Source: Actinorhabdospora filicis
Lineage (GTDB): Bacteria > Actinomycetota > Actinomycetes > Mycobacteriales > Micromonosporaceae
Reading direction: 5' to 3'
Length of the DNA stretch: 64,000 nucleotides
Assembly: GCF_030269765.1 (NCBI RefSeq)
Contig: NZ_BSTX01000002.1
Location: 1,087,379 to 1,151,378, forward strand
Shown: positions 28,448 through 41,061 of the stretch, one piece after another
Layout: every line of letters starts with the position of its first letter
Numbering within the stretch: the stretch's first letter is position 1
Translations under genes and position numbers: made by a program
Notes under the pieces: model-generated
What the model was told of the DNA's origin: nothing
Databases searched by the model: none
What the model saw: only the letters and a program-made list of their open reading frames with translations

Positions 28448-28789
28448 ATGGGTGAGCGTATGCTGCGCGGCAGCCGTCTCGGCGCGATCAGCTACGAGTC
28501 CGATCGCAACACCGAGCTCGCGCCGCGGCAGACCAGGGATTACGTCTGCGAGCGCGGGCACCGTTTCGAGGTGCCCTTCGCCGTGGACGCCGAAGTTCCG
28601 TCGACGTGGGAGTGCCGCCTGGACGGCACCACCGCCCGGCTGGTGGACGGTTCGGAGCCGGAGGCCAAGTCTGGCAAGCCTCCGCGCACGCACTGGGACA
28701 TGCTCCTGGAGCGCCGCAGCGTCGACGATCTGGAGGAGATCCTCAACGAGCGTCTGGAAGAGGTCCGCGCGCGTCGCGGCAAGGCCTAA
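28448..28789 (+). CDS. rbpA: RNA polymerase-binding protein RbpA
   Basis: 113 residues, the family's usual size. RbpA binds the principal sigma factor and core polymerase and stabilises open complexes. The N-terminal GSRLGAISYESDRNTELAPR and C-terminal sigma-interaction region KPPRTHWDMLLERRSVDDLE match the family. The core domain has VCERGHRFE, but the WECxxC pair seen in Streptomyces is WECRLD here, so one zinc ligand is missing and structural zinc may be absent. ATG has GAGGGGAAG 7 nt upstream. Confidence 0.93.
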   Translation: MGERMLRGSRLGAISYESDRNTELAPRQTRDYVCERGHRFEVPFAVDAEVPSTWECRLDGTTARLVDGSEPEAKSGKPPRTHWDMLLERRSVDDLEEILNERLEEVRARRGKA

Positions 28790-28817: not shown

Positions 28818-28849
28818 GGGGCCGTGGTCACTTCGGTGACCGCGGCCCC
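28818..28849 (+). terminator. Hairpin terminator between rbpA and fxsA
   Basis: A 14-bp stem, with one T-G wobble, closes on a TTCG tetraloop (28832-28835). The 3' arm is followed by TCGTTGT. It starts 29 bp after rbpA and overlaps the end of the convergent fxsA reading frame, whose stop codon lies at 28828-28830. Confidence 0.7.
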
Positions 28850-29367
28850 TCGTTGTCCTCACGGGGGCCGTCGACGATCTCGCCTTCCAGGACCTCACCG
28901 TCGATGACGTCGTGGGGCCCGCTCTCATCGGGCATCCCCGCCTCGGTGCGCACCCGGCGCGGCCCGAACATCGCACCCATCTGCCCCGAGGGCAACCGCG
29001 AGGCCAGCAGCCTCTCGGCCAGCGGCCGCAGCAGCGCCCGCGTCGGCGGGAACACGCACAGCAGCCCCAGGACATCGGAGATGAACCCCGGCACCAGCAG
29101 CCCGATGGCGCCGACGAACGCGATCGTCCCATCGACGATGGTGCGCCCGGGCGGGCGCCCCTCACGGGCGTCCTCGGCATAGGCGCGGAAGGCCTTGGCG
29201 CCGAAGTAGCGCATCAGGCTCGCCCCGGCGAAACCGGTGACCAGCGTCAGCAGGATCGTCCAGCCGATCCCGATCCAGCGCGCGACGAGGATGTAGACGA
29301 CCAGTTCGCAGATCACCAGCAGCGATCCGAACGGGAAGCGGCGCCGCCGCCGGACGGGCCCGGTCAT
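28828..29367 (-). CDS. fxsA: FxsA family membrane protein
   Basis: 179 residues. FxsA proteins are small inner-membrane proteins named from suppression of phage F exclusion of T7 in Escherichia coli. Membrane segments are [20 protein letters not shown], a second one at [14 protein letters not shown], and [20 protein letters not shown] with the conserved PGFxxDxxG. The acidic tail (about 135-179) is longer than in enteric FxsA. It overlaps the next gene's start by 4 bp; the fxsA-ppm-lnt order beside rbpA is a recurring actinomycete block. Confidence 0.88.
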
Positions 29368-30152
29368 CGCCGCGCCTTGTCCTTACCGCCGAACAGCGAC
29401 GCGACCTGCCCCGCACGGTGCTTCACACCCCACGAACCCACCCGCAGCAGCGCCTCGCGCACGATCGAGCCGCCCATCTTGGACGCGCCGCGCTCGCGCT
29501 CGGCGAAGGTGATGGGGACCTCCACCACCCGCAGGCCCGCGCGCACCGCCCGCCAGGTGAGGTCGATCTGGAAGCAGTACCCGGCCGAGGCCACCGTGCC
29601 CAGGTCGAACTTGTCGAGGGCGTCCAGGCGGTAGGCGCGGTACCCGGCGGTGGTGTCGCGCACCGGCACGCCCAGCAGGATGCGGGTGTAGAGGCTGCCG
29701 CCGCGCGACAGCAGCAGCCGGTGGGCCGGCCAGTTGACGACCTTGCCGCCGGGGACGTAGCGGGAGCCGATGACCGCGTCGGCCTCGCCCAGGGCGTCCA
29801 GGAGGCGGTGGAGCTGCTCGGGGGCGTGGGAGCCGTCGGCGTCCATCTCGACCACGACGTCGTAACCGTGCTCGCGGGCCCAGGCGAAACCGGCCAGGTA
29901 GGCCATGCCCAGGCCCTCTTTCCCGGCCCGGTGCAGCACGTGGACGTTGGCGTCGGCGGCGGCCAGGCCGTCGGCGATGTCGCCGGTCCCGTCGGGGCTG
30001 TTGTCGTCGGCGACGAGGATGTGCGCCACCGGCACCGCCGCGCGCGTGCGCGCCACGATGGACTCGACGTTGTCCTTCTCGTTGTAGGTGGGGATGATCA
30101 CCAGGACCTTGCCGATGCGCGGATAGTCCTCACCGGCCGGTGTGGTCGTCAC
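29364..30152 (-). CDS. ppm1: Polyprenol-phosphate mannosyltransferase (GT2)
   Basis: 262 residues of the GT2 fold. It transfers mannose from GDP-mannose to polyprenyl phosphate, giving the donor for lipoglycan and protein mannosylation. [18 protein letters not shown] is the nucleotide strand, [17 protein letters not shown] and [15 protein letters not shown] contain the two aspartate motifs, and [16 protein letters not shown] is the Dpm1 signature. The catalytic domain is separate from lnt, which lies 21 bp upstream, unlike the fused mycobacterial Ppm1. Confidence 0.9.
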
Positions 30153-30173: not shown

Positions 30174-31778
30174 TCACGCCGAGGTGCCCACGCGGCGGCG
30201 GCGCAGCACGACCGCGGCCACCACGATCGCCACCGCACCGGCGGCGATCAGCAACTCTGGAAGCATACCGAGCAGGTGAGCGGGGGTGACGCCGTCACCG
30301 AGGCGCACCGCGCGCGACATCGCCGCCCGCGTGTTGAACTCGGTGGCCTCGTGCACCGTCCCGTCGGCGTCGACGTAGGCCGACACGCCCACCGTGGACG
30401 CCATCAGGGCGCTGCGCCCGTGCTCCACCGCCCGCAGCCGCACCATCGCCAGCTGCTGCTGGGCCTCGGCGTTGTTGAAGGTGGCGTTGTTGGTCTGCAC
30501 CGCGATCAGCTCCGCGCCGGTGTCGACGGTCTCGCGGACCACGTCGTCGAAGGCGATCTCGTAGCAGATCACGTCGCCGACCTTCACCCCGCCGATGTCG
30601 ACCACGCCCGGCTCGGTGCCCGGGGCGAAGTTGCCGGCGATCTTGACCTTGTCGGTGATCTTCTCCACCAGGTCCCGAAACGGCACCTGCTCCACGAACG
30701 GCACCAGGTTGCGCTTGACGTAGCCCACGCGCGGCTCCTGACCGGCGTAGACCACCAGCCCGGAGTTCCGCGAGCGCCCGTCGGGGCCCTTGACCAGCGC
30801 GCCCACCAGGATCGGCGCCTTGATGACCGCCGCGGCGTTGTCGATGATCGCCTTGGCGTCGAGGTTGCGCACCGGGTCGATGTCGGAGGAGTTCTCCGGC
30901 CAGATCACCAGGTCCGGCTGCGGCTCGCTACCGCGCGCGACCCGCCCGGCCAGCTCGATGGTGGCCTCGGCGTGGTTGTTGAGAACCTGCAGCCGCTGCG
31001 CGTTGAAGTCCAGGCCCAGGCGTGGGACGTTGCCCTGCACGATCGCCACTACCGCCTCACGCCCACCCGGCGTCGAGGTCGGCACCACCAGCCCCGCCAG
31101 GACCAGCAGCACCGCCGCGGCGGCGAACGCCGTCACCTTCCCCCAGCCGATGTGCCGCCACCGCCACACCGCGCACAGCAGCAACCCGCCCGACAGGGCC
31201 GTCACGAACGTCACCAGCGGCGCGCCGCCCAGCCACGCGAAGGCCAGCAGCGGCGAATCGGCCTGCGCGAAGGCCAGCCGCCCCCACGGGAACCCGCCGA
31301 AGGGGAACCGGTCGCGCACCGCCTCCATGCCCACCCACAAGGCGGCCGTACCCACCGGCCACGTCCAGTGCCAGCGGTCGAAGACCCGGCCGCCACCGGC
31401 GGTGAAGGCACCCAGCATCCCCACGAACACCGCCTGCAGGGTCGCCAGCAGCAACCACGGCCAGGCGCCCACCTGCGTACCCGTCCAGTCCAGCAACGGC
31501 ACGAACAGCGCCCAGCCGGCCACCGTGCCCAGCCCGAAACCGGCCCAATGCCGCTGCCGGTGCACCGCCGCGCCCAGCCCCGCCACGCACAACGGCGCCA
31601 GCCACCACAGCCCGATCGGCGGGAACGACAGCCACAGGCCCAGGCCCGATACCAGCGCCAGGCCGTAGGCGACCGGCAGACGCAACCGCGCGCGTCCCCT
31701 CCGGTCGCGCCCGCGCCACCACGGCCCGGCCGCTTCAGTTGCCGTGACCGTGCCCGGATCCACAGACGTGGCCGCCAC
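30174..31778 (-). CDS. lnt: Apolipoprotein N-acyltransferase
   Basis: 534 residues from the chosen GTG. N-terminal half: about six membrane segments. C-terminal half: nitrilase-fold periplasmic domain with the catalytic triad Glu in VIWPENSSD, Lys in YVKRNLVPFVEQ and Cys in VICYEIAFDD, then a last membrane helix. It N-acylates lipoproteins at the outer face of the membrane. The frame extends to a TTG at 31817; I chose GTG 31778 because GGGAG lies 5 nt upstream. It precedes ppm and fxsA in one transcription unit. Confidence 0.9.
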   Translation of the reverse strand: MAATSVDPGTVTATEAAGPWWRGRDRRGRARLRLPVAYGLALVSGLGLWLSFPPIGLWWLAPLCVAGLGAAVHRQRHWAGFGLGTVAGWALFVPLLDWTGTQVGAWPWLLLATLQAVFVGMLGAFTAGGGRVFDRWHWTWPVGTAALWVGMEAVRDRFPFGGFPWGRLAFAQADSPLLAFAWLGGAPLVTFVTALSGGLLLCAVWRWRHIGWGKVTAFAAAAVLLVLAGLVVPTSTPGGREAVVAIVQGNVPRLGLDFNAQRLQVLNNHAEATIELAGRVARGSEPQPDLVIWPENSSDIDPVRNLDAKAIIDNAAAVIKAPILVGALVKGPDGRSRNSGLVVYAGQEPRVGYVKRNLVPFVEQVPFRDLVEKITDKVKIAGNFAPGTEPGVVDIGGVKVGDVICYEIAFDDVVRETVDTGAELIAVQTNNATFNNAEAQQQLAMVRLRAVEHGRSALMASTVGVSAYVDADGTVHEATEFNTRAAMSRAVRLGDGVTPAHLLGMLPELLIAAGAVAIVVAAVVLRRRRVGTSA

Positions 31779-32224
31779 AGGCGCTCCCGCGTGTCGTTGA
31801 GGTGAAGGGTCCAGCAAGTATCACCGACGCCCGCCGGATACGGCGAAGGGGCGTGGCAGCCACCACGCCCCTCGCGTTCCCAGGCCCTTTCGGCGGGTGA
31901 TCGACGCACGTCACACGACACGACCTTCGGACCAATTCGGAACCGGCCGGCTGCCAAACCCCGAACTGTTGTCTACTGGCCGATCGCGCGACCTGCGATC
32001 CTCACCTCACGGCGACCGTCTCGCACCGCCCCGCCGACCCCCGCGCGCTGAGCCTGGCCGCCGGCGGTGATGCGGCCGACCACCACCGATTGCCCAGTCT
32101 GCGAAGGAACGAAGCGAGCCGAGCCGCCCCCGATTACGGACAAGGCAACGGTAAGGCGTCCCATACGGGGGCTGTCAACCGGGTCCGGGAAATCCACCCG
32201 AGATTGACACCCGCCACACCCGTC
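31779..32224. other. 446-bp intergenic region upstream of lnt
   Basis: No gene is supported. A 10-bp hairpin (arms 31847-31856 and 31863-31872) precedes lnt and, on the minus strand, has CCCCTT after it; it could terminate the lysine operon or lie in the lnt leader. A TTGACA at 32178-32173 on the minus strand is followed 17 bp on by CTTACC (32155-32150), a candidate promoter for the lnt unit. A 74-codon frame (31973-32197, minus) has no recognisable features. Confidence 0.5.
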
Positions 32225-33619
32225 TCACACCCCACCCAGGCACCCCGCCAGCAACCGCGCCGCCGCGCCCGGCAGCACCTCCGCCAGCAGACCCGCCGCC
32301 GCCAGCACGTACCGCGCGTCCACCGTCACCGACGGCGACACCGGCAACGGCCACCCACCGGCCCCATCGGCGATCGCCGAGCGCACCACGCCCACACCAC
32401 GACCCGCCCGCGCGTGCCGCAACGCCCCACCCGAACCCACCACCAGGGCCACCTGACGCAGGTCCTTGCCACCCCGAAACGGCCCGTCGGGACCGTCCAG
32501 GCGCTCCCCCCGGGCATGGCGGCGCAACGCCACCGTGATCGCCAAAGCCGCCAGCCGCTCATCGACGGCCGCCTCGGCCCCATCGGCGGGCAGGAACCCC
32601 GGATCGGCCGCCCGGACCGCCACGGCCGCCGCCAGCCCGTCGGCCTCATCGGGGGTCAGCAGCTTCTCCCCCAGGGCCGCCTCGACCACACCGGGGGCGT
32701 TCCAGCGCATCCCCAGATCACCCTCCACCGTCCGCGCCCGCCACTGCGTACCGGCCACCTCCGCGCGCGGGCCCAGCAGCTCGGCGTCCGGCGTCAGCAC
32801 CGAGTACACATCCGTGGTCGCACCCCCCACGTCCACCAGCAGCAGATCACCCCGCCCGGGCACCTCACCGTGGCCGTCAGCCAGCAACTCCACCCCGCGC
32901 AACACCGCGTCGGGAGTCGCCGCGCGCACCATGCGCGTGAACTCCTCCCCCGCCGACAGCCGCTTCCCGGCGATCACATGCGTCAAGAACGCCTCACGCA
33001 GCGCCTCACGCGCCTCCTGCGGCCGCAACCGCCCGATCCGGGGCAGCACGTTGCCCACCGACCGCACGCTCAGCCCCGCCCGCGTGAGGATCCCCTCCAC
33101 CTCCGGCGCGGCCTTCGCGTTGGCCGCCAGCACCACCGGCACCCGCAACCGCGCCTCGGCCCCGGCCGCCTCCGCCAGCTGACGCGCGTGCTCCAGCAGC
33201 ACCGTGGCGTCCCCGCCGTCGGTACCACCCGCCAGCAGGATCGTGTCCGGGACCGTCTCGGCGATGCCCGCGACATCGGCCGCCGACAGCGCCCCCGCGG
33301 CCACCCGCACGATCCGCGCACCCGCCGACAACGCCGCCCGGTGCGCCGCGGTGGCCGTCACCAGGGGCTCATTGCCGATCACCGCGCACGTCAGGCCACC
33401 ACCGGCCGAGGAGCACACCAGCGTCCCCGACACCCCCACACCCGCCGGGAGCCGCGACTCCAGCACCGCCCGGGCCGCCCCCAGCCCCTCCAGCACATCG
33501 GTGCCCACCGTCGTGGGATGGGCCGCGGTGGCGTACAGCTCACCGGTGACCTCATCGACCGCCGCGACCTTGGTGTACGTCGAACCCACGTCGGCGCACA
33601 CCACCGCAGAAGCGCTCAT
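32225..33619 (-). CDS. GlmL/MutL-family ASKHA protein, candidate mutase reactivase
   Basis: 464 residues. VVCADVGSTYTKVAAVDE is the first phosphate loop and LLLVDVGGATTDVYSVL the second, marking the ASKHA ATPase fold; CSSAGGGLTCAVIGNE and LLAGGTDGGD match the methylaspartate mutase accessory protein GlmL (MutL) family. GlmL lies with B12-dependent glutamate mutase genes and is thought to maintain it. Here it sits 4 bp after kal and close to kamDE, so I infer reactivation or cofactor exchange for lysine 5,6-aminomutase. ATG at 33619 with GAAGG upstream. Confidence 0.8.
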   Translation of the reverse strand: MSASAVVCADVGSTYTKVAAVDEVTGELYATAAHPTTVGTDVLEGLGAARAVLESRLPAGVGVSGTLVCSSAGGGLTCAVIGNEPLVTATAAHRAALSAGARIVRVAAGALSAADVAGIAETVPDTILLAGGTDGGDATVLLEHARQLAEAAGAEARLRVPVVLAANAKAAPEVEGILTRAGLSVRSVGNVLPRIGRLRPQEAREALREAFLTHVIAGKRLSAGEEFTRMVRAATPDAVLRGVELLADGHGEVPGRGDLLLVDVGGATTDVYSVLTPDAELLGPRAEVAGTQWRARTVEGDLGMRWNAPGVVEAALGEKLLTPDEADGLAAAVAVRAADPGFLPADGAEAAVDERLAALAITVALRRHARGERLDGPDGPFRGGKDLRQVALVVGSGGALRHARAGRGVGVVRSAIADGAGGWPLPVSPSVTVDARYVLAAAGLLAEVLPGAAARLLAGCLGGV

Positions 33620-33623
33620 GCCT

Positions 33624-34013
33624 TCACGCCTTCGGCGGAACGACCACGGTCCCCGTGGCACTGGTGGCCAGGATCGGCGGATCGCACACCTCCGCCGCCG
33701 ACTCGCCCAGATCCGGGCGGCCACGGCAGATCACGTGCACCGAGAAACTGATCCGCCGCGAGCGCGTGCCGACCTTCGTCAGCACCGCCGTGGTCTCGAT
33801 GACGTCCCCCGCCCGCAGCGGAGCGTGGAACTGCACGTCCGAATACGACGCGAACAGGCCCTCGTCACCGTCGGAGCGGATGCACAACTCGGTGGCCACG
33901 TCACCGAACAACCCCAACCCGTAGGCCCCGTCCACCAGGTTCCCGGCGTAGTGGGCATGGCTGTAGGGGATGTAACGGCGGTGGGTGACGGTCAGTCCCT
34001 CAACGGCGCTCAC
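33624..34013 (-). CDS. kal: 3-aminobutyryl-CoA ammonia-lyase
   Basis: 129 residues, a single hotdog domain. Kal removes ammonia from L-3-aminobutyryl-CoA to give crotonyl-CoA in lysine fermentation. The N-terminal RRYIPYSHAHYAGNLVDGAY matches the Kal type, and FASYSDVQFHAPLRAGDVIE is the hotdog helix-strand. Start GTG overlaps the kamE stop (GTGA), indicating coupled translation. Generic hotdog thioesterases look similar, so the assignment leans on the operon context. Confidence 0.82.
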   Translation of the reverse strand: MSAVEGLTVTHRRYIPYSHAHYAGNLVDGAYGLGLFGDVATELCIRSDGDEGLFASYSDVQFHAPLRAGDVIETTAVLTKVGTRSRRISFSVHVICRGRPDLGESAAEVCDPPILATSATGTVVVPPKA

Positions 34014-34768
34014 GCCACGGGCTCCTTCGGTCGGCTCGCCAGCGCGTGGACGAGATAGGAAGCGACGTCACCGGGAGTGGTGCCGCGCGCGAAGATCCGG
34101 TCGACGCCCAGCTCGCCGGCCATGGTCTCGTCGAAGCGCGGGCCCCCGACGATCAGCAGCGGCCGCTCGGTGGGCCCGAAGGCCTCCCGGAACGCCGCCG
34201 ACATCTCCCTGGTGTTGTGAAGATGCGCGTCGCGCTGGGTCACCACCTGCGACACCAGCACCGCGTCGGCGCCCTCGTCCACCGCCCGGTTCACCAGGTC
34301 CGGCACCGGCACCTGCGCGCCCAGGTTGACCACCCGCAGCTCCCGGTAGTACTCCAGGCCCTTCTCACCCGCGATGCCCTTGATGTTCAAAATCGCGTCG
34401 ATGCCCACCGTGTGCGCGTCGGTGCCGATGCAGGCGCCCACCACCACCAGCTTGCGGCCCAGGTTCTCCTTCACCGCGGTGTTCACCTCCTTGCTCGACA
34501 GCAAGGGGTAGTCGCGCTCGATCACGTTGACCTCGGACAGGTTCACCAGATGGTTCACCGACCCGTACACCACGAAGAACGTGTGCGCGGTGCCCATCTG
34601 CTTGGCATGAACCAGCATCGCCGGGTCCATGCCCATCTTCTGCGCCAGCTGCACCGCCGCGCCCTCGGCGCGCTTGTCGTGCGGCACCGGCAGCGTGAAC
34701 GACACCTGCACCATCCCGTCACCGGTGGTGTCACCGTAGGGACGCACGATCTTGGGACTGTCGCCCAT
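34010..34768 (-). CDS. kamE: Lysine 5,6-aminomutase beta subunit
   Basis: 252 residues. This B12-binding subunit has GTDAHTVGID, where DxHxxG supplies axial His119. Lys130 in NIKGIAGEKG lies 11 residues later, the same spacing as the axial His and PLP-binding Lys of the Clostridium enzyme. Residues about 20-85 form the dimerisation part. With KamD it moves the epsilon-amino group of beta-lysine to C5. The ATG is fused to the kamD stop (TGATG); a GTG one codon earlier is possible. Confidence 0.94.
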   Translation of the reverse strand: MGDSPKIVRPYGDTTGDGMVQVSFTLPVPHDKRAEGAAVQLAQKMGMDPAMLVHAKQMGTAHTFFVVYGSVNHLVNLSEVNVIERDYPLLSSKEVNTAVKENLGRKLVVVGACIGTDAHTVGIDAILNIKGIAGEKGLEYYRELRVVNLGAQVPVPDLVNRAVDEGADAVLVSQVVTQRDAHLHNTREMSAAFREAFGPTERPLLIVGGPRFDETMAGELGVDRIFARGTTPGDVASYLVHALASRPKEPVA

Positions 34769-36336
34769 CACCCTTCACCCCCGTCGAGGATCTCCACCGC
34801 CGGGTTGAAGTAGTCACCCGCACGCTTCTCCACACCGTCCAGGCCGCGCCCGCCATCGGCCGGGCGCTTCATGATCCCGAAGGTGCCCTCGCCGATGGCC
34901 TGCAGCAGACCGTCGTCGCAGATCTTCTCCAGCAACTCCACCGCCTCGCACAGCACCAGATTCGCCCGCGAGTCGATGAACCCGCCCGCCGGCGGATGGA
35001 AGTCCTCGGCCAGCCCACCGCACGCGTTCAGCACGTAACGCACGTTCTGCAGCGCCAGGTCGCGATCCGACAGCCACGGCGTCACCACCGCCTCGGTCAT
35101 CATCCCCACCAGCAGGATCCCCTGCCCGGTCATCGAACCCACCAGGTTGAAGAACCCGTCCAGCAGATAACCCCGGAACACGTCACCGGTCATGTGCTTG
35201 GTCGGCGGCATCCACTTCAGCGGCGCGTCGGGGAACAGCTCCCGCGCCAGCAGCGCGTGCGCCAGCTCCAGCCGGAACGAATCCGGCAGATCCGGGTTGA
35301 TCTCGAAGGCGTGCCCCAGCCCCAGCAGCTCATCGGGCAGCCCCGCCTCATGCGCGAAGAACTCGTTCAGCAACTGCGACACCGTCACCGTGTGCGCCGC
35401 CTCCACCGCGTCGGCGGTGGTCAGGTAGTTGTCCTCACCGGTGTTGATGATGATCCCCGCCCGCGAGTGCACCTGCCGCGAGAACCGCTGGTCCACGAAC
35501 GTCCGGATCGGGTTGATGTCACGGAACAAGATCCCGTACATCGAGTCATTGAGCATCATGTCCAGCCGGTTCAAACCCGCCAGCGCCGCGATCTCCGGCA
35601 TGCACAACCCCGACGCGTAATTCGTCAGCCGGATGTAACGCCCCAGCTCACGCGAGGTCTCATCCAGCGCCGCCCGCATCAGCCGGAAGTTCTCACCCGT
35701 GGCATAGGTCCCCGCGAAACCCTCACGCGTGGCGCCCTCGGGCACATAGTCCAGCAGCGACTGACCCGTCGAACGGATCACCGCGATCACGTCCGCGCCC
35801 GCCCGCGCCGCCGCCTGCGCCTGCGGGATGTCCTCATAGATGTCACCCGTGGCCACGATCAAATAGATCCACGGACGCTGCTGCGGGTCACCGATCTCGG
35901 CGACCATCCGCTCCCGCTCCACCCGCTTGGCGTCCACGACCTCCAGGCCGTGCGAGACCGCCGCCCGCGCGAGCTTGCGCGCCTCGGCGTCCGCACGCCC
36001 GTCGGGAACGGTGAACCGCACCGCCCCCGACGCCGCCTTCTGCGCCAGCGCCACCAGATCCGAATGGCCCTCACTGGCCAGCGCGTGGAACACCGGCGCC
36101 GCCACACCGTGCGCGACACCAACGTCCTCACGCACCGCGTCGACCAGCCGGTTCACCCACGGGATCCCATCCGGATCGGCACCCGCCAGACCCGCCAGCC
36201 GCAGCGTCGCCCGCTCCACCGACACCGTCGTATGACTCCGCGCGATATCGACCACCGGCTGACCCGCGCGACGGGCCAGACCCCTCGCCCGCGCCACCAC
36301 ATCGGCGTCCAAACGCAACCGCGGCTGATGCGCCAC
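34768..36336 (-). CDS. kamD: Lysine 5,6-aminomutase alpha subunit
   Basis: 522 residues, close to the roughly 516 of the clostridial enzyme. This TIM-barrel subunit holds the PLP and adenosylcobalamin faces. Family blocks are visible: DVIAVIRSTGQSLLDYVPEG, YIRLTNYASGLCMPEIAALA, MMLNDSMYGILFRDINPIRT and INTGEDNYLTTADAVEAAHT. Start GTG at 36336 has GGAG 7 nt upstream and lies 4 bp after the amidohydrolase stop; the frame upstream of it is a shadow of that gene. Acts in the cytoplasm with KamE. Confidence 0.95.
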   Translation of the reverse strand: MAHQPRLRLDADVVARARGLARRAGQPVVDIARSHTTVSVERATLRLAGLAGADPDGIPWVNRLVDAVREDVGVAHGVAAPVFHALASEGHSDLVALAQKAASGAVRFTVPDGRADAEARKLARAAVSHGLEVVDAKRVERERMVAEIGDPQQRPWIYLIVATGDIYEDIPQAQAAARAGADVIAVIRSTGQSLLDYVPEGATREGFAGTYATGENFRLMRAALDETSRELGRYIRLTNYASGLCMPEIAALAGLNRLDMMLNDSMYGILFRDINPIRTFVDQRFSRQVHSRAGIIINTGEDNYLTTADAVEAAHTVTVSQLLNEFFAHEAGLPDELLGLGHAFEINPDLPDSFRLELAHALLARELFPDAPLKWMPPTKHMTGDVFRGYLLDGFFNLVGSMTGQGILLVGMMTEAVVTPWLSDRDLALQNVRYVLNACGGLAEDFHPPAGGFIDSRANLVLCEAVELLEKICDDGLLQAIGEGTFGIMKRPADGGRGLDGVEKRAGDYFNPAVEILDGGEG

Positions 36337-36340
36337 TACC

Positions 36341-37858
36341 TCACTCCTCCACGAAAATCGTGCGCCCCGCCAACACAGTGCGCACACACGACGGCGCCAC
36401 CCGGGGATCCGGCAGATCCGCCGAACGGTGCTCCCACACCGCCAGCGTCGCCGGAGCACCCGGAACCAGCACCCCCGCCACGTCATCCCCCATCGCACGC
36501 CAGCCACCACGCGTGGCCGCCGCGAACGCCGACTTCAGCGACAACCGCTGCGCCGGATTGTGATGCCACACCGCCGCGGCGACCCCACCCCACGGATCAC
36601 ACGGCGTCACCGGAGCGTCCGAACCGAACGCCAGCGGCACACCCACACCCGCCAGCGAAGCGAACGGATTCGCCGCCAGCGCACGCTCCTTACCCAACCG
36701 GCGCGCGTACATCGCGTCCGGCCCACCCCAGGCCGCGTCGAACGCCGGCTGCACACTCGCGTGCAGACCGAACGCCACGAAACCCGCGATCAGCTGCTTG
36801 TCCAGCAACTCCGCGTGCTCCACACGGTGCCGCATACCCCGCACCGCCTCCACACCCACCTGCTGCGCGGCCGCGCCCACACCCGCCACCACGTTCGCGA
36901 TCGCCTGATCCCCGATCGCGTGGAACCCACCCTGGATCCCGTGCCGGTGACAGTCCAGGATGTGGTTCTCCACATCCTCGGCCGACAAGTACGCGTGCCC
37001 CAGCGTGTCGGCGTCGACGTAGGCCTCCCGCAACGCCGCCGTGTGCGCGCCGATCGACCCGTCCACCGACAGGTCACCGCCACACGCGTGCGCGCCCAGA
37101 TCCCGCGCCTTCTCCGCCGCGCACAACTCACCCCAGTAACCCACCACGCGCGGGACGTCCTCCTCGCGCGACAGCCTCAGCAGCGCGGCGAACTCCCGCT
37201 CGGGCACCGAGGTCCCCGCCAGGCCGATGCCGCACTCGTGCAGCGCCGCCACGCCCAGGCTCGCCGCCCGGCCCAGCGCCGCGCGCTGGAACTCCGCGCG
37301 CTGCCCGTCGGTCACCGACTCGGCCGCCGCGGCCCGGTAGGACTTGTGCGAATGCAGCGTCAGCGGGCCCTCGGCGGCGAAACCCTCCTTGGCCGCGTAC
37401 TCCGGATGCGCCGCCCGCAGGGCGGGCGAGGCCAGGCCCTGATGCCCGCACACCCGCGACAGGTAGGCCTTGCGGCCACCGGTGGCGCGGTCGAGCTCGG
37501 CGAGGGTGGGCAGCCGCGGATCGGCCCAGGTCGACTCGTCCCAGCCGTGCCCGGCCACCACCGCGTCACCCGGCAGATCCCGCACGTGCGCGGCGACCCG
37601 CTCCAGCAGGTCGGCCGCCGAAGAGGTACCGGCGAGGTTGAGGCCGATCAGGTCGGCGCCCAGGCCGGTGATGTGGGCGTGGGCGTCGACGAACGCCGGG
37701 GTGACCAGGCGTCCCTCCAGCTCCACGATCACGTCCGACTGGGGCGCGTCGGCGTCGGCGCCCAGCCACGAGATCACACCGTTGTCGTCGACCTGTAGCG
37801 CCGTCGCCGCCGGAGCGGCCGGGGAGAGGATGTGCCCACCGCGGTAAAGAGTCGTCAT
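36341..37858 (-). CDS. YtcJ-like amidohydrolase (Amidohydro_3)
   Basis: 505 residues. The metal-dependent amidohydrolase barrel shows VDAHAHITG (HxH), GGFHAIGDQAIANVV (third His), MRHRVEHAELL (fourth His) and AFGSDAPVTP (Asp). LTLHSHKSY lies near residue 165. The family removes acyl or formyl groups from amines and other amides. It is embedded between kdd and kamD with ATGA overlap on one side and 4 bp on the other, so it is part of the lysine operon although the known fermentation pathway has no such step. Substrate unknown. Confidence 0.85.
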   Translation of the reverse strand: MTTLYRGGHILSPAAPAATALQVDDNGVISWLGADADAPQSDVIVELEGRLVTPAFVDAHAHITGLGADLIGLNLAGTSSAADLLERVAAHVRDLPGDAVVAGHGWDESTWADPRLPTLAELDRATGGRKAYLSRVCGHQGLASPALRAAHPEYAAKEGFAAEGPLTLHSHKSYRAAAAESVTDGQRAEFQRAALGRAASLGVAALHECGIGLAGTSVPEREFAALLRLSREEDVPRVVGYWGELCAAEKARDLGAHACGGDLSVDGSIGAHTAALREAYVDADTLGHAYLSAEDVENHILDCHRHGIQGGFHAIGDQAIANVVAGVGAAAQQVGVEAVRGMRHRVEHAELLDKQLIAGFVAFGLHASVQPAFDAAWGGPDAMYARRLGKERALAANPFASLAGVGVPLAFGSDAPVTPCDPWGGVAAAVWHHNPAQRLSLKSAFAAATRGGWRAMGDDVAGVLVPGAPATLAVWEHRSADLPDPRVAPSCVRTVLAGRTIFVEE

Positions 37859-38919
37859 GAGTGCCTAGTCTCGACCAGGCGGCGCTCGAACAACGAACGC
37901 ACCCCCGCCGAGGAACGCAGCAGCCGCAGGGCCAGCTCCGCGTGACCCGGGGTGTACCCGTTCCCGATGAGCATCCGCACGTCGGCCGCCAGGCCCTCCG
38001 CACCCAGCGCCGCCGCCGGGAACGAGGTCGCCATCGAGAAGAAGATGACCGTGCCGCCCTCGGCGGTGGCCAGCACCGCGCCGTGCTCGCAGCCGGGCAC
38101 GTCCACGCACACCACCGTCACGTCGGCCAGGCCGCCCACCGAGGACACCGCCTCGGCCGTGGCCACCGGGTCCGTCGCGTCGGCCACCACCACCGAGTCG
38201 GCCAGACCCGCCTCGGCCAGCAGCTTCGCCTCACCCGGATTGGGCACCAGGCCCGTCAGCCGGCCCGCGCCCGAGGCCCGCGCCGCCGCCAGCGACAGCG
38301 CGCCGCTCTTGCCCGCCGCGCCCAGCACCGCCACATGCGGCGCCCGGCCGGTATTGGCCGCGTACTCCTCCACCACCCGCGCGGTCATCGCCGGGGCACC
38401 GCACACGTCGAAGACCGCCAGCGACAGGTCCGCCGGAAGGTCATCGGGCAGAACCGCCGCGATCGAGCGCGCGAACAGCACCGCGTGCCCCTCGGCCGGG
38501 ACCTGCTCACTCGTGCCGTCCCAGCGCGCCAGCCCATCGGTGATCACCAGCGGCGTCAGCGTCAGCGACACCAAGGTCGCCACCCGCTGCCCCACCCGCA
38601 GGCCCAGCGGGGAGTCCGGGCCGACCGCCTCGACCGTCCCGATCAGCATCCCACCCGAACCGGTGTCCGGATTGTGCATCTTCCCGCGCTCGGCGACGAT
38701 GCGCAGCACCTCATCGCGCACCTGTCCACCGTCCCCGCCGAACTTGACGGAGAGCTGACGGAAGCTGGCCGCGTCCAGGTTGAGGCGCTCGACGCGGATG
38801 CGGACCTCATCGGCGGCGATCTCGCCGCGCGCGTCGAGCTTCCACGCCGCCTGCGGCAGCACCCCCGAAGGTTCCAGCACCCGGTGCAGACCCACAGGTG
38901 ACGAGGGGGTTTCCGACAT
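37855..38919 (-). CDS. kdd: L-erythro-3,5-diaminohexanoate dehydrogenase
   Basis: 354 residues. Kdd oxidatively deaminates 3,5-diaminohexanoate to 5-amino-3-oxohexanoate with NAD(P). RIRVERLNLDAASFRQL, GMLIGTVEAVGPDSPLGLRV and VAVLGAAGKSGALSLAAAR (Rossmann loop) follow the Kdd family, a divergent relative of medium-chain dehydrogenases. ATG 38919 has AAGGAGGAG 4 nt upstream, the strongest ribosome binding site of the cluster. It is the first gene of the minus-strand operon kdd-amidohydrolase-kamD-kamE-kal-ASKHA. Confidence 0.9.
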   Translation of the reverse strand: MSETPSSPVGLHRVLEPSGVLPQAAWKLDARGEIAADEVRIRVERLNLDAASFRQLSVKFGGDGGQVRDEVLRIVAERGKMHNPDTGSGGMLIGTVEAVGPDSPLGLRVGQRVATLVSLTLTPLVITDGLARWDGTSEQVPAEGHAVLFARSIAAVLPDDLPADLSLAVFDVCGAPAMTARVVEEYAANTGRAPHVAVLGAAGKSGALSLAAARASGAGRLTGLVPNPGEAKLLAEAGLADSVVVADATDPVATAEAVSSVGGLADVTVVCVDVPGCEHGAVLATAEGGTVIFFSMATSFPAAALGAEGLAADVRMLIGNGYTPGHAELALRLLRSSAGVRSLFERRLVETRHS

Positions 38920-38984
38920 CGCTCCTCCTTGAGCACGGGTGAAGATCCCCAGCAGGATAGCCGAAGATTCTCCGGCGGGGTAGC

Positions 38985-39015
38985 TTGACATCAGGAGGGT
39001 TTCCGCTAGTAGCCT
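38985..39015 (+). promoter_or_regulatory. Candidate kamA promoter in the kdd/kamA divergent region
   Basis: TTGACA at 38985-38990 is followed by TAGTAG at 39007-39012 (16-bp spacing) and TAGCCT at 39010-39015 (19-bp). The kamA ribosome binding site is about 30 bp further on. On the other strand TATCCT (38959-38954) is a possible -10 for kdd. No regulator gene is adjacent. Confidence 0.4.
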
Positions 39016-39054
39016 CTCGTGAATCGCGTATCTCAATGCCGAGGAGGCGTTAAC

Positions 39055-40500
39055 GTGTCTTTGACGGACGGCACCGGACCGACGGTCATGGAGCAGCCGT
39101 ACATCTACCGGCGCGCCGAACTCGCCGAGCCCGACTGGCGGCGCTTCCCCGGCTGGCGCGACGTGACCACCGAAGAGTGGGAGTCGGCGCAGTGGCAGCG
39201 CGTCAACTGCGTGAAGAACATCAAGCAGCTGCACGCCCTGCTCGGCGAGCTCGTCGACGAGAGCTTCTACAAGGACCTCGCCGACGACCAGGAGCACCTG
39301 GCGACGATGTCGATGCTGGTCCCGCCGCAGATGCTGAACACCATGGTCGTGGAATCCCCCGGTGACACCCCCGGCGCGTGGACCGAGGCCTTCTACGCCG
39401 ACCCCGTGCGGCGGTACATGATCCCGGTGGCCTCCGACCGCCGGCGCGACTGGCCGTCCCACCCCTACGCCACCCGCGACTCGCTGCACGAGCACGACAT
39501 GTGGGTCGCCGAGGGTCTCACCCACCGCTACCCGACCAAGGTGCTGGCCGAGCTGCTGTCCACGTGCCCGCAGTACTGCGGGCACTGCACGCGCATGGAC
39601 CTCGTCGGCAACTCCACCCCCACGGTGGACAAGCTGAAGCTGACCTTGAAGCCCAAGGACCGCTACGACGCCATGATCGACTACCTCCAGGCTCATCCCG
39701 GGGTGCGCGACGTGGTGGTCTCCGGCGGCGACGTGGCCAACGTGCCGTGGAAGAACCTTGAGAGCTTCCTGACCCGGCTGCTGGACATCGACACCGTCCG
39801 CGACATCCGCCTGGCCACCAAGGCCCTGGCGGCGCTGCCGCAGCACTGGCTCCAGGACGACGTGGTGGAGGGCCTGGGCCGCGTCGCCCAGACCGCCCGG
39901 GCGCGCGGGGTCAACCTCGCCATCCACACCCACGTCAACCACGCCCAGTCGGTGACGCCGCTGGTGGCGCGCGCGGCTCGCGCGGCGCTGGACGCCGGCG
40001 TCCGCGACGTGCGCAACCAGGGCGTCCTGATGCGCGGTGTCAACGACAGCACCAAGGCGCTGCTGGACCTGTGCTTCGCGCTGCAGGGCGAGGCGAACAT
40101 CCTGCCGTACTACTTCTACATGTGCGACATGATCCCCAACGCCGAGCACTGGCGGACCTCGCTGGCCACCGCGCAGGCCCTGCAGACCTCGATCATGGGT
40201 TACCTGCCCGGCTACGCCACTCCCCGCATCGTGTGCGACGTGCCCTTCGTGGGCAAGCGGTGGGTGCACCAGGTGTCGCGTTACGACGCCGAGCGCGGGG
40301 TGTCCTACTGGACGAAGAACTACCGGACGTCGATCGAGATGGCCGACCCCGAGGCCCTGATCCGCGAGTACCCGTACTACGACCCGATCGACACCCTCCC
40401 CGAGGCGGGCCAGGCCCACTGGCGCGCCGAGCACATCCCGGCGCAGGTGGCCAGTGAGGCGCGCGAGGCGGCGGCGCTGTCGCGGGCGGCCTCGCTCTAG
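39055..40500 (+). CDS. kamA: Lysine 2,3-aminomutase (radical SAM)
   Basis: 481 residues. KamA uses a [4Fe-4S]-SAM radical and PLP to turn L-lysine into beta-lysine. The cluster cysteines are 171, 175 and 178 in CPQYCGHCTR. Asp358 (YMCDMIPNAEHWRT) and Asp395 (VCDVPFVGK) match the two aspartates that hold the lysine side-chain amine in clostridial KamA, and Lys401 matches the PLP lysine. This favours lysine over glutamate as substrate. The protein is about 65 residues longer than clostridial KamA (416). GTG 39055 has GAGGAGG 7 nt upstream. Divergent from kdd. Confidence 0.9.
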   Translation: MSLTDGTGPTVMEQPYIYRRAELAEPDWRRFPGWRDVTTEEWESAQWQRVNCVKNIKQLHALLGELVDESFYKDLADDQEHLATMSMLVPPQMLNTMVVESPGDTPGAWTEAFYADPVRRYMIPVASDRRRDWPSHPYATRDSLHEHDMWVAEGLTHRYPTKVLAELLSTCPQYCGHCTRMDLVGNSTPTVDKLKLTLKPKDRYDAMIDYLQAHPGVRDVVVSGGDVANVPWKNLESFLTRLLDIDTVRDIRLATKALAALPQHWLQDDVVEGLGRVAQTARARGVNLAIHTHVNHAQSVTPLVARAARAALDAGVRDVRNQGVLMRGVNDSTKALLDLCFALQGEANILPYYFYMCDMIPNAEHWRTSLATAQALQTSIMGYLPGYATPRIVCDVPFVGKRWVHQVSRYDAERGVSYWTKNYRTSIEMADPEALIREYPYYDPIDTLPEAGQAHWRAEHIPAQVASEAREAAALSRAASL

Positions 40501-40509
40501 CGAAGCGCG

Positions 40510-40544
40510 AAAGGGCCGGAAGACGCTATGTCTTCCGGCCCTTT
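40510..40544 (+). terminator. Rho-independent terminator of kamA
   Basis: Perfect 15-bp stem (arms 40510-40524 and 40530-40544, 5-nt loop) ending in CTTTT, 9 bp after the kamA stop. Confidence 0.85.
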
Positions 40545-40686
40545 TCAGCTCCAGGTGCGGGTGCGGTTGACCGTCTCGGATCACCCCCACGCTTGTGGGA
40601 ACCGGTATCGCCGTAACTGGGCCGGAGTGAGCTCGGCTCCGGGCACGGTACCTCCGCAGGGGCGCTGATCGCCGCGCCGTACCGCC

Positions 40687-41061
40687 TCAGGCCGCGACGC
40701 GCTCCAGCTGGGCGGCCACGGCGTCCCGGTCGGCCAGGAACCACACGTGGCGGCCCCGGTTCGACTCGCGCACCAGGTCGCGGAAGGCGTCGCTGGCCTC
40801 GATGTGCGCGCTGACGTCGCCCAGCACGATCAGCCCGGCCCGGTACTGCACGAACTTCTGCATGATCCCCCCGGCCACGCCCGTGCGGAGCGTGAAGAAG
40901 TCCGCGCTCAGTCGCTCCACCGGCACCGCCACCCAGTCGGCGCCGCGGCCGTAGTTGGCGGCGATGAGGTCGACGGCCGAGCGCTCGTCGGTCACCGCGT
41001 CGCCCTCGGGATCGCAGAAGAGCACTCCCACGCCGTGCAGGGTCTCCACGATGTCGCTCAT
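40687..41061 (-). CDS. DUF4180 protein
   Basis: 124 residues. The sequence (VETLHGVGVLFCDPEGDAVT, VPVERLSADFFTLRTGVAGG, MQKFVQYRAGLIVLGDVSAH) matches DUF4180, whose function is not known. The pattern SxxFRDLVRESNRGRHVWFL is the conserved C-terminal block. ATG overlaps the stop of the HTH gene (ATGA), so the two proteins are made together and probably work together. Confidence 0.82.
   Translation of the reverse strand: MSDIVETLHGVGVLFCDPEGDAVTDERSAVDLIAANYGRGADWVAVPVERLSADFFTLRTGVAGGIMQKFVQYRAGLIVLGDVSAHIEASDAFRDLVRESNRGRHVWFLADRDAVAAQLERVAA

Follow-up and report, generated by a model that had tools for sequence, protein, structure and literature searches.

A putative lysine catabolic gene cluster in Actinorhabdospora filicis

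The stretch of DNA analysed here (the window; 64,000 nucleotides of Actinorhabdospora filicis, contig NZ_BSTX01000002.1, positions 1,087,379 to 1,151,378) contains a cluster of seven genes that likely belong to a lysine catabolic pathway. In the clostridial/fusobacterial fermentation of lysine, as outlined in PMC3149608, the first five steps are catalyzed by KamA, KamDE, Kdd, Kce and Kal. Open frames for all seven genes are present at the coordinates listed below, and their strands and near-overlap are as claimed in an earlier reading made from the DNA letters alone (the sequence-only reading). Six genes form a minus-strand operon (kdd-amh-kamD-kamE-kal-glmL) in which neighbours overlap by 4 bases or sit 4 bases apart; kamA is divergent from it on the plus strand, with a likely GTG start at 39055 after AGGAGG (identified by eye) and a stop codon ending at 40500. 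A kce gene was not found in the cluster.

39055..40500, plus strand: kamA, divergent-clade putative lysine 2,3-aminomutase (radical SAM); PDB 2a5h match, TIGR03820 below cut-off, kept residues
40509..40545, plus strand: probable terminator hairpin 3' of kamA; folding energy versus shuffles
38920..39054, no strand: kdd/kamA divergent intergenic region; TTGACA by eye
37855..38919, minus strand: kdd, L-erythro-3,5-diaminohexanoate dehydrogenase; NF052381, PDB 7dl3
36341..37858, minus strand: amh, hydrolase of the Amidohydro_3 family, probable resident neighbour; PF07969
34768..36336, minus strand: kamD, lysine 5,6-aminomutase subunit; NF052384, PDB 8t0v
34010..34771, minus strand: kamE, lysine 5,6-aminomutase subunit; NF052385, PF02310, PDB 9q1a
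33624..34013, minus strand: kal, 3-aminobutyryl-CoA ammonia lyase; NF052388
32225..33619, minus strand: GlmL/MutL-family gene (glmL), proposed KamDE reactivase or assembly factor; PF13941, TIGR01319

The cluster is real: four of its products score over curated cut-offs, and chance is not at issue. These are Kdd (NF052381, 261 bits, cut-off 200), KamD (NF052384, 690.5 bits, cut-off 600), KamE (NF052385, 353.8 bits, cut-off 280; PF02310 is matched as well) and Kal (NF052388, 188.8 bits, cut-off 160). Furthermore, KamD, KamE and Kdd each match a solved structure bearing their own name (PDB 8t0v, 555 bits; 9q1a, 229 bits; 7dl3, 227 bits). Elsewhere in our data set, locus L059 (G378:C34; here and below, G, C, L and f numbers denote genomes, contigs, loci and families) carries an additional, divergent copy of the kamD/kamE pair (45% and 46% identical); its 20 kb stretch yielded no other gene of the operon.

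The GlmL-like protein matches PF13941 (440.9 bits) and the TIGR01319 subfamily (269.4 bits, cut-off 204), with GlmL and the ornithine Or-4 accessory proteins as its nearest known counterparts, and falls short of both equivalog models (GlmL, NF040745: 342.9 bits, cut-off 475; Or-4: 236.5 bits, cut-off 600). A match to the MutL family is no proof of shared function; we propose that the protein may act as a reactivase or assembly factor of KamDE. PF13941 (MutL/GlmL family) is matched in 54 of 59 kam-positive genomes (18/18 in f15, 33/34 in f16, 3/7 in others) and in 0/20 kam-negative f16 genomes tested. Where compared in f15 and f16, the MutL-family gene is located at a separate locus.

A divergent clade of putative lysine 2,3-aminomutases

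The sequence-only reading had assigned the classical KamA-KamDE-Kdd-Kal set to the cluster. This holds for Kdd, KamD, KamE and Kal; KamA is under all cut-offs and not of the classical type, and kce lies outside the cluster. All six KamA-type NCBIfam models matched by KamA leave it well under cut-off (e.g., the subfamily model TIGR00238 with 164.9 bits, cut-off 199.2), and the best-scoring of them is AblA, yet again far under its cut-off. The sole PDB match at E ≤ 0.001 is 2a5h (lysine 2,3-aminomutase, 142.7 bits), which is also the top fold match of a low-confidence structure model (mean predicted local distance difference test score 65.6) that added nothing further. Aligned with 2a5h, KamA retains three cysteines with the arginine that follows, and two aspartates; the aspartates presumably bind lysine, and we take the others to be catalytic. 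The motif CPQYCGHCTR, two CD aspartates and a C-terminal lysine are invariant across 23 aligned KamA sequences. The residue that we take to be the pyridoxal phosphate lysine falls just beyond the aligned end, and the lysine shared by all 23 sequences is found at roughly this position. KamA thus appears to represent a divergent lysine 2,3-aminomutase clade with the expected residues and so may work like the classical enzyme.

Elsewhere in the phylum, another KamA type occurs in the kam cluster of an f36 genome (L255), where KamA passes TIGR03820 with 540.6 bits; hence at least two types of KamA accompany KamDE. The genome of A. filicis itself possesses a second KamA, 71% identical, which is located on contig C6 (L064:9316-18951) among AMP-binding, amine-oxidase, SDR and MFS genes. 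This neighbourhood is possibly a β-lysine natural-product cluster.

A promoter and a terminator of its own had been ascribed to kamA as well. The terminator is probable, given the hairpin at 40509-40545 (folded stretch 40495-40550, -33.7 kcal/mol, z -5.45, 0/200 shuffles equally stable), which a consensus terminator scan did not list; a sigma-70-type promoter scan called no promoter at the kdd-kamA gap, where TTGACA can be seen by eye. Separate control of β-lysine entry, suggested in the sequence-only reading, finds weak support in the hairpin, and speaking against it are the f23 loci, in which kamA is co-directional with the operon (7/7), and the Glycomyces-type loci, in which kamA leads into kce. 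Between kdd and kamA, 38 of 70 named loci in the range L126 to L193 (the gap of the window is outside this count) share a GGAAAA...TTTTCC-like box, a possible operator, although this may merely mirror close kinship. Downstream of kamA, a DUF4180 protein is encoded at 40687-41037; a 57% relative adjoins the kamA of Phytomonospora endophytica, whose locus (L123) is the closest to the cluster among those named.

A Kce-like gene outside the cluster

Two BKACE genes are present in the genome, and the Kce-like one, a putative kce, sits on another contig. Its product has its best PDB match in 2y7d (Cloacimonas Kce; 212.9 bits, the next match having 143) and its best model in NF052387 (KCE). The second BKACE gene (L063) was set aside with 65 bits to the KCE model, and the amidohydrolase of the operon, considered as a Kce substitute, was dropped after the Kce-like gene had turned up elsewhere in the genome.

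Kce relatives (E up to 1e-70) were found in 140 of the 397 sampled genomes of the order, i.e. in all 136 kamD-positive ones and in 4 of the 261 kamD-negative ones (G022, G178, G219, G304). The same split between kamD-positive and kamD-negative genomes is seen within families (f15, 18/18 vs 1/60; f16, 34/34 vs 1/40). By coordinates, kce is ≤5 kb from kamD in 10/10 genomes of g4, which we take to be Glycomyces. It stands behind kamA in five named Glycomyces loci and in one metagenome-assembled genome, and in the two g4 loci checked base by base its likely start overlaps the kamA stop.

The proposed pathway and its relation to Lat

Lysine ε-aminotransferase (Lat), which we take to be an alternative entry to lysine degradation in related genomes, is over its cut-off in 108 of the 397 order genomes, and not one of the 136 kamD-positive genomes is among these (the lat matches of G124, G153, G137 and G033, split or under cut-off, are outside the 108). 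That kce and MutL-family genes co-occur with kamD and the kam genes and that Lat is excluded speaks for a catabolic role, in line with the catabolic set that the sequence-only reading had seen in this high-GC actinomycete. Nor is kamD peculiar to this genome, being present in 79/79 sampled genomes of the host's own family (f1).

In the proposed pathway, KamA would convert L-lysine to β-lysine, which KamDE, a B12-dependent enzyme kept active by the GlmL-like protein, would convert to 3,5-diaminohexanoate; Kdd would then form 3-keto-5-aminohexanoate, which the unlinked Kce-like enzyme would cleave, and Kal would release ammonia, yielding crotonyl-CoA. The products would probably feed respiration rather than butyrate fermentation, and the Kam route would substitute for Lat in these lineages. 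Judged from sequence comparisons, it is likely that these bacteria possess a complete Kam-type lysine catabolic route in place of Lat, and that this route, with its locus near the flanking gene lnt, is old in Actinomycetota and was repeatedly lost.

The kamA gene can also be found without the operon. Of 60 kamD-negative f15 genomes, 39 lack Lat, and 36 of these have kamA (E up to 1e-60), as against 1 of the 21 that possess Lat; in kamD-negative genomes from other families it was found in 1 of 19 tested. Stretches with kamA divergent beside amh and no kamD or kdd were seen in G027 (L113), G022 (L111), G037 and G330, as well as at L166, L188, L197, L199, L200 and L201.

If KamA were biosynthetic, the operon could mainly break down β-lysine from another source (e.g., the host's own natural product), KamDE and the following enzymes serving for salvage. 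The second KamA on C6 with the gene neighbourhood described above, the hairpin belonging to kamA alone and the retention of kamA without a PF09043 match in 37/60 f15 genomes and in G022 would fit this possibility. We nevertheless regard it as improbable: in the order, 29 of 33 kamD loci also have a kamA of the same clade, Lat is excluded from the sampled kamD-positive genomes, kamA is co-directional with the operon in f23, and salvage of a single product is not expected in 79/79 sampled genomes of a family. Still much less probable is the production of β-lysine as an osmolyte in an AblA-like manner, with the remaining genes clearing its excess. Some carriers of kamA only belong to Saccharomonospora and Haloechinothrix, presumably halophilic genera, and among the KamA models it is AblA that gives the highest score, still far short of its cut-off. 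Against this, no common partner gene stands beside kamA in the kamA-only loci that could be compared (seven of eight; by eye, without family models), and the co-occurrence of Kce and MutL would be left unexplained. No acetyltransferase was matched among the scanned window neighbours of kamA, and no genome-wide AblB search was made. A catabolic Kam route stays our preferred reading.

An amidohydrolase probably independent of the pathway

The amh product (PF07969, 240.9 bits) has H60, H62, H313, H348 and D414 invariant in 63 aligned sequences, residues which presumably bind metal. No alignment column divides the amh copies of kam-positive genomes from those of kam-negative ones; f23 was outside this comparison, and rows of ≤470 aa, L249, f36 and paralogs were left out of the alignment. 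Because its metal-type residues are invariant and no column separates the two groups, Amh probably has an independent function that is not specific for the pathway. The gene accompanies a conserved flank (gene names as we presume them, assigned without a family-model scan):

30174..31817, minus strand: lnt, conserved flank, outside the pathway; synteny
29364..30152, minus strand: ppm1-type glycosyltransferase, conserved flank; synteny
28828..29367, minus strand: fxsA, conserved flank; synteny
28448..28789, plus strand: rbpA, conserved flank; synteny

In a sample of 30 kamD-negative genomes, 5 were without an amh match and 20 of the remaining 25 were fetched; amh is near lnt in all 20 (within 1.4 kb in 19, about 4.2 kb away at L111), and 2 of the 20 keep kamA. 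A further sample of 60 genomes contained 11 without an amh match. In four of four kam-less genomes of other families in the class, which gave no lnt match there, amh is near ppm1 and rbpA.

A link of Amh to lysine catabolism, e.g. through release of lysine from N-acyl-lysine or reopening of a lactam, would explain why amh stands between kdd and kamD in 29/32 informative order loci and in 7/7 f23 loci. The count of 32 includes the decayed L072; L071 (contig too short) and L059 (the second divergent kamD) are outside it. In f10, moreover, lat is divergent from amh at 113-256 bp in all 16 genomes having both (e.g., G009:C32:63404-66293), a position resembling that of kamA beside the kdd-amh operon in kam-positive genomes, versus 0/35 genomes of other families, where lat is on another contig or >360 kb off. 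The lat-positive genomes G004, G007, G012, G021, G026, G034, G036, G040 and G041, non-adjacent by coordinates, are outside these 35. However, this pairing, which we keep as a lead, may be one single event, and draft contigs could conceal adjacency elsewhere. Moreover, amh persists near lnt or ppm1/rbpA in the kam-less genomes just described, its columns fail to separate kam-positive from kam-negative copies, and amh was not found inside the operon in Glycomyces-type, Terrabacter-type and f7 loci. A specific link to lysine catabolism thus appears rather doubtful, and we favour an independent neighbour.

Distribution and history of the locus

Searching related genomes for the same gene order, as the sequence-only reading had proposed, showed this order to be common to the loci of the order and to f23. 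Altogether, kamD is present in 136 of the 397 order genomes (f15, 18/78; f16, 34/74), among them G020 with a decayed copy. In the 33 fetched kam-positive loci of the order, the fetched stretch has lnt on the kal/glmL side in 25 (its adjacency is not constant) and kamA is present in 29; three of the four loci without kamA are short contigs or a decayed copy. A scan of named loci, confined to the best 80 of 533 confirmed stretches and no census, gave 69 with kamD, 6 with kamA beside amh without kamD/kdd, and 5 cut by contig ends. In f23, which belongs to the same phylum and stands outside the class, kamA-kdd-amh-kamD-kamE are co-directional in 7/7 loci, with kal in 5 and lnt in the stretch in 4. 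A recent insertion of the kam genes on both sides of an amh already in place has become less plausible, as f23 has the same order and an amh of the same clade. In G020, remnants of kdd, kamD and kal are found at the same locus, amh is open and the Kce relative is retained; kamE and kamA were not found in this stretch.

Trees were quick ones with support from the Shimodaira-Hasegawa-like approximate likelihood ratio test only; rows of ≤450 aa were dropped for amh, and rows of ≤480 aa or without kamE for kamD. In the amh tree, the f23 copies join the others, separate from paralogs (support 96). In the kamD tree, f16 forms one clade and f15 groups with Kibdelosporangium. We prefer old presence of the kam locus near lnt and repeated loss, with mainly vertical descent. 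A mainly horizontal spread of the kam genes to their hosts is unlikely in our opinion, even if kamD is patchy in the order and in the phylum and rows of other orders nest within the order's kamD clade. Several families share locus and gene order, f16 and f15 each cohere in the kamD tree, the amh tree misplaces other orders similarly, and G020 keeps a decayed copy at the same locus beside an open amh.

Several observations tell against an old and complete Kam route. KamA has 166.7 bits against the equivalog TIGR03820 (cut-off 525.4), and the Kce-like protein 274.5 bits against NF052387 (cut-off 382), its gene being unlinked to the cluster in A. filicis. Five of the 59 kam-positive genomes gave no MutL match (G343, G363, G176, G008, G013), G008 and G013 being fragmented assemblies. 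The co-occurrence counts for kce, MutL and Lat are raw counts with no kinship correction, and the genome searches covered the steps from KamA to Kal, ahead of CoA transfer to acetoacetate and crotonyl-CoA oxidation. In the phylum sample, no more than 21 of 396 genomes match PF09043. Rows of other orders are placed inside the amh tree; in the kamD tree, f1 does not hold together and f19, f20 and Terrabacter-type rows nest in the order's clade (support 90-99), so that transfer or poor resolution may still account for this part.

Lysine degradation in actinomycetes

Relatives of the host are presumably aerobic. A broader, tentative scenario, to which we give somewhat less than even chances, would be that the Kam route was ancestral in much of Actinomycetota and worked under air through a KamA clade of its own that possibly tolerates oxygen, and that several lineages switched to Lat, in f10 beside amh at the usual place of kamA; a lone amh or a lone kamA near lnt would then be remains.

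The pathway is known chemistry in a new setting, with divergent first and fourth enzymes. Together with the unlinked Kce-like gene, the cluster covers the first five steps of the clostridial/fusobacterial pathway as given in PMC3149608; it differs by its actinomycete host, by a KamA and a Kce under the cut-offs, by the unlinked kce and by an amidohydrolase within the operon. The Kat variant, described in PMC3149608 for Cloacimonas and one Bacteroidetes genome, has the first four steps in common with it, and the actinomycete cluster retains kal. No report of the Kam pathway in actinomycetes was found in the open-access literature searched, most matches being judged from listings.

The Kam route is a likely answer to the question of how lysine is degraded in many actinomycetes without Lat. 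As KamA and Kce score under curated cut-offs, model-based annotation may overlook the first and the fourth step. The route would place a radical SAM and a B12-dependent aminomutase in the catabolism of organisms which we take to be aerobic, and makes an oxygen-tolerant lysine 2,3-aminomutase a directly testable question.

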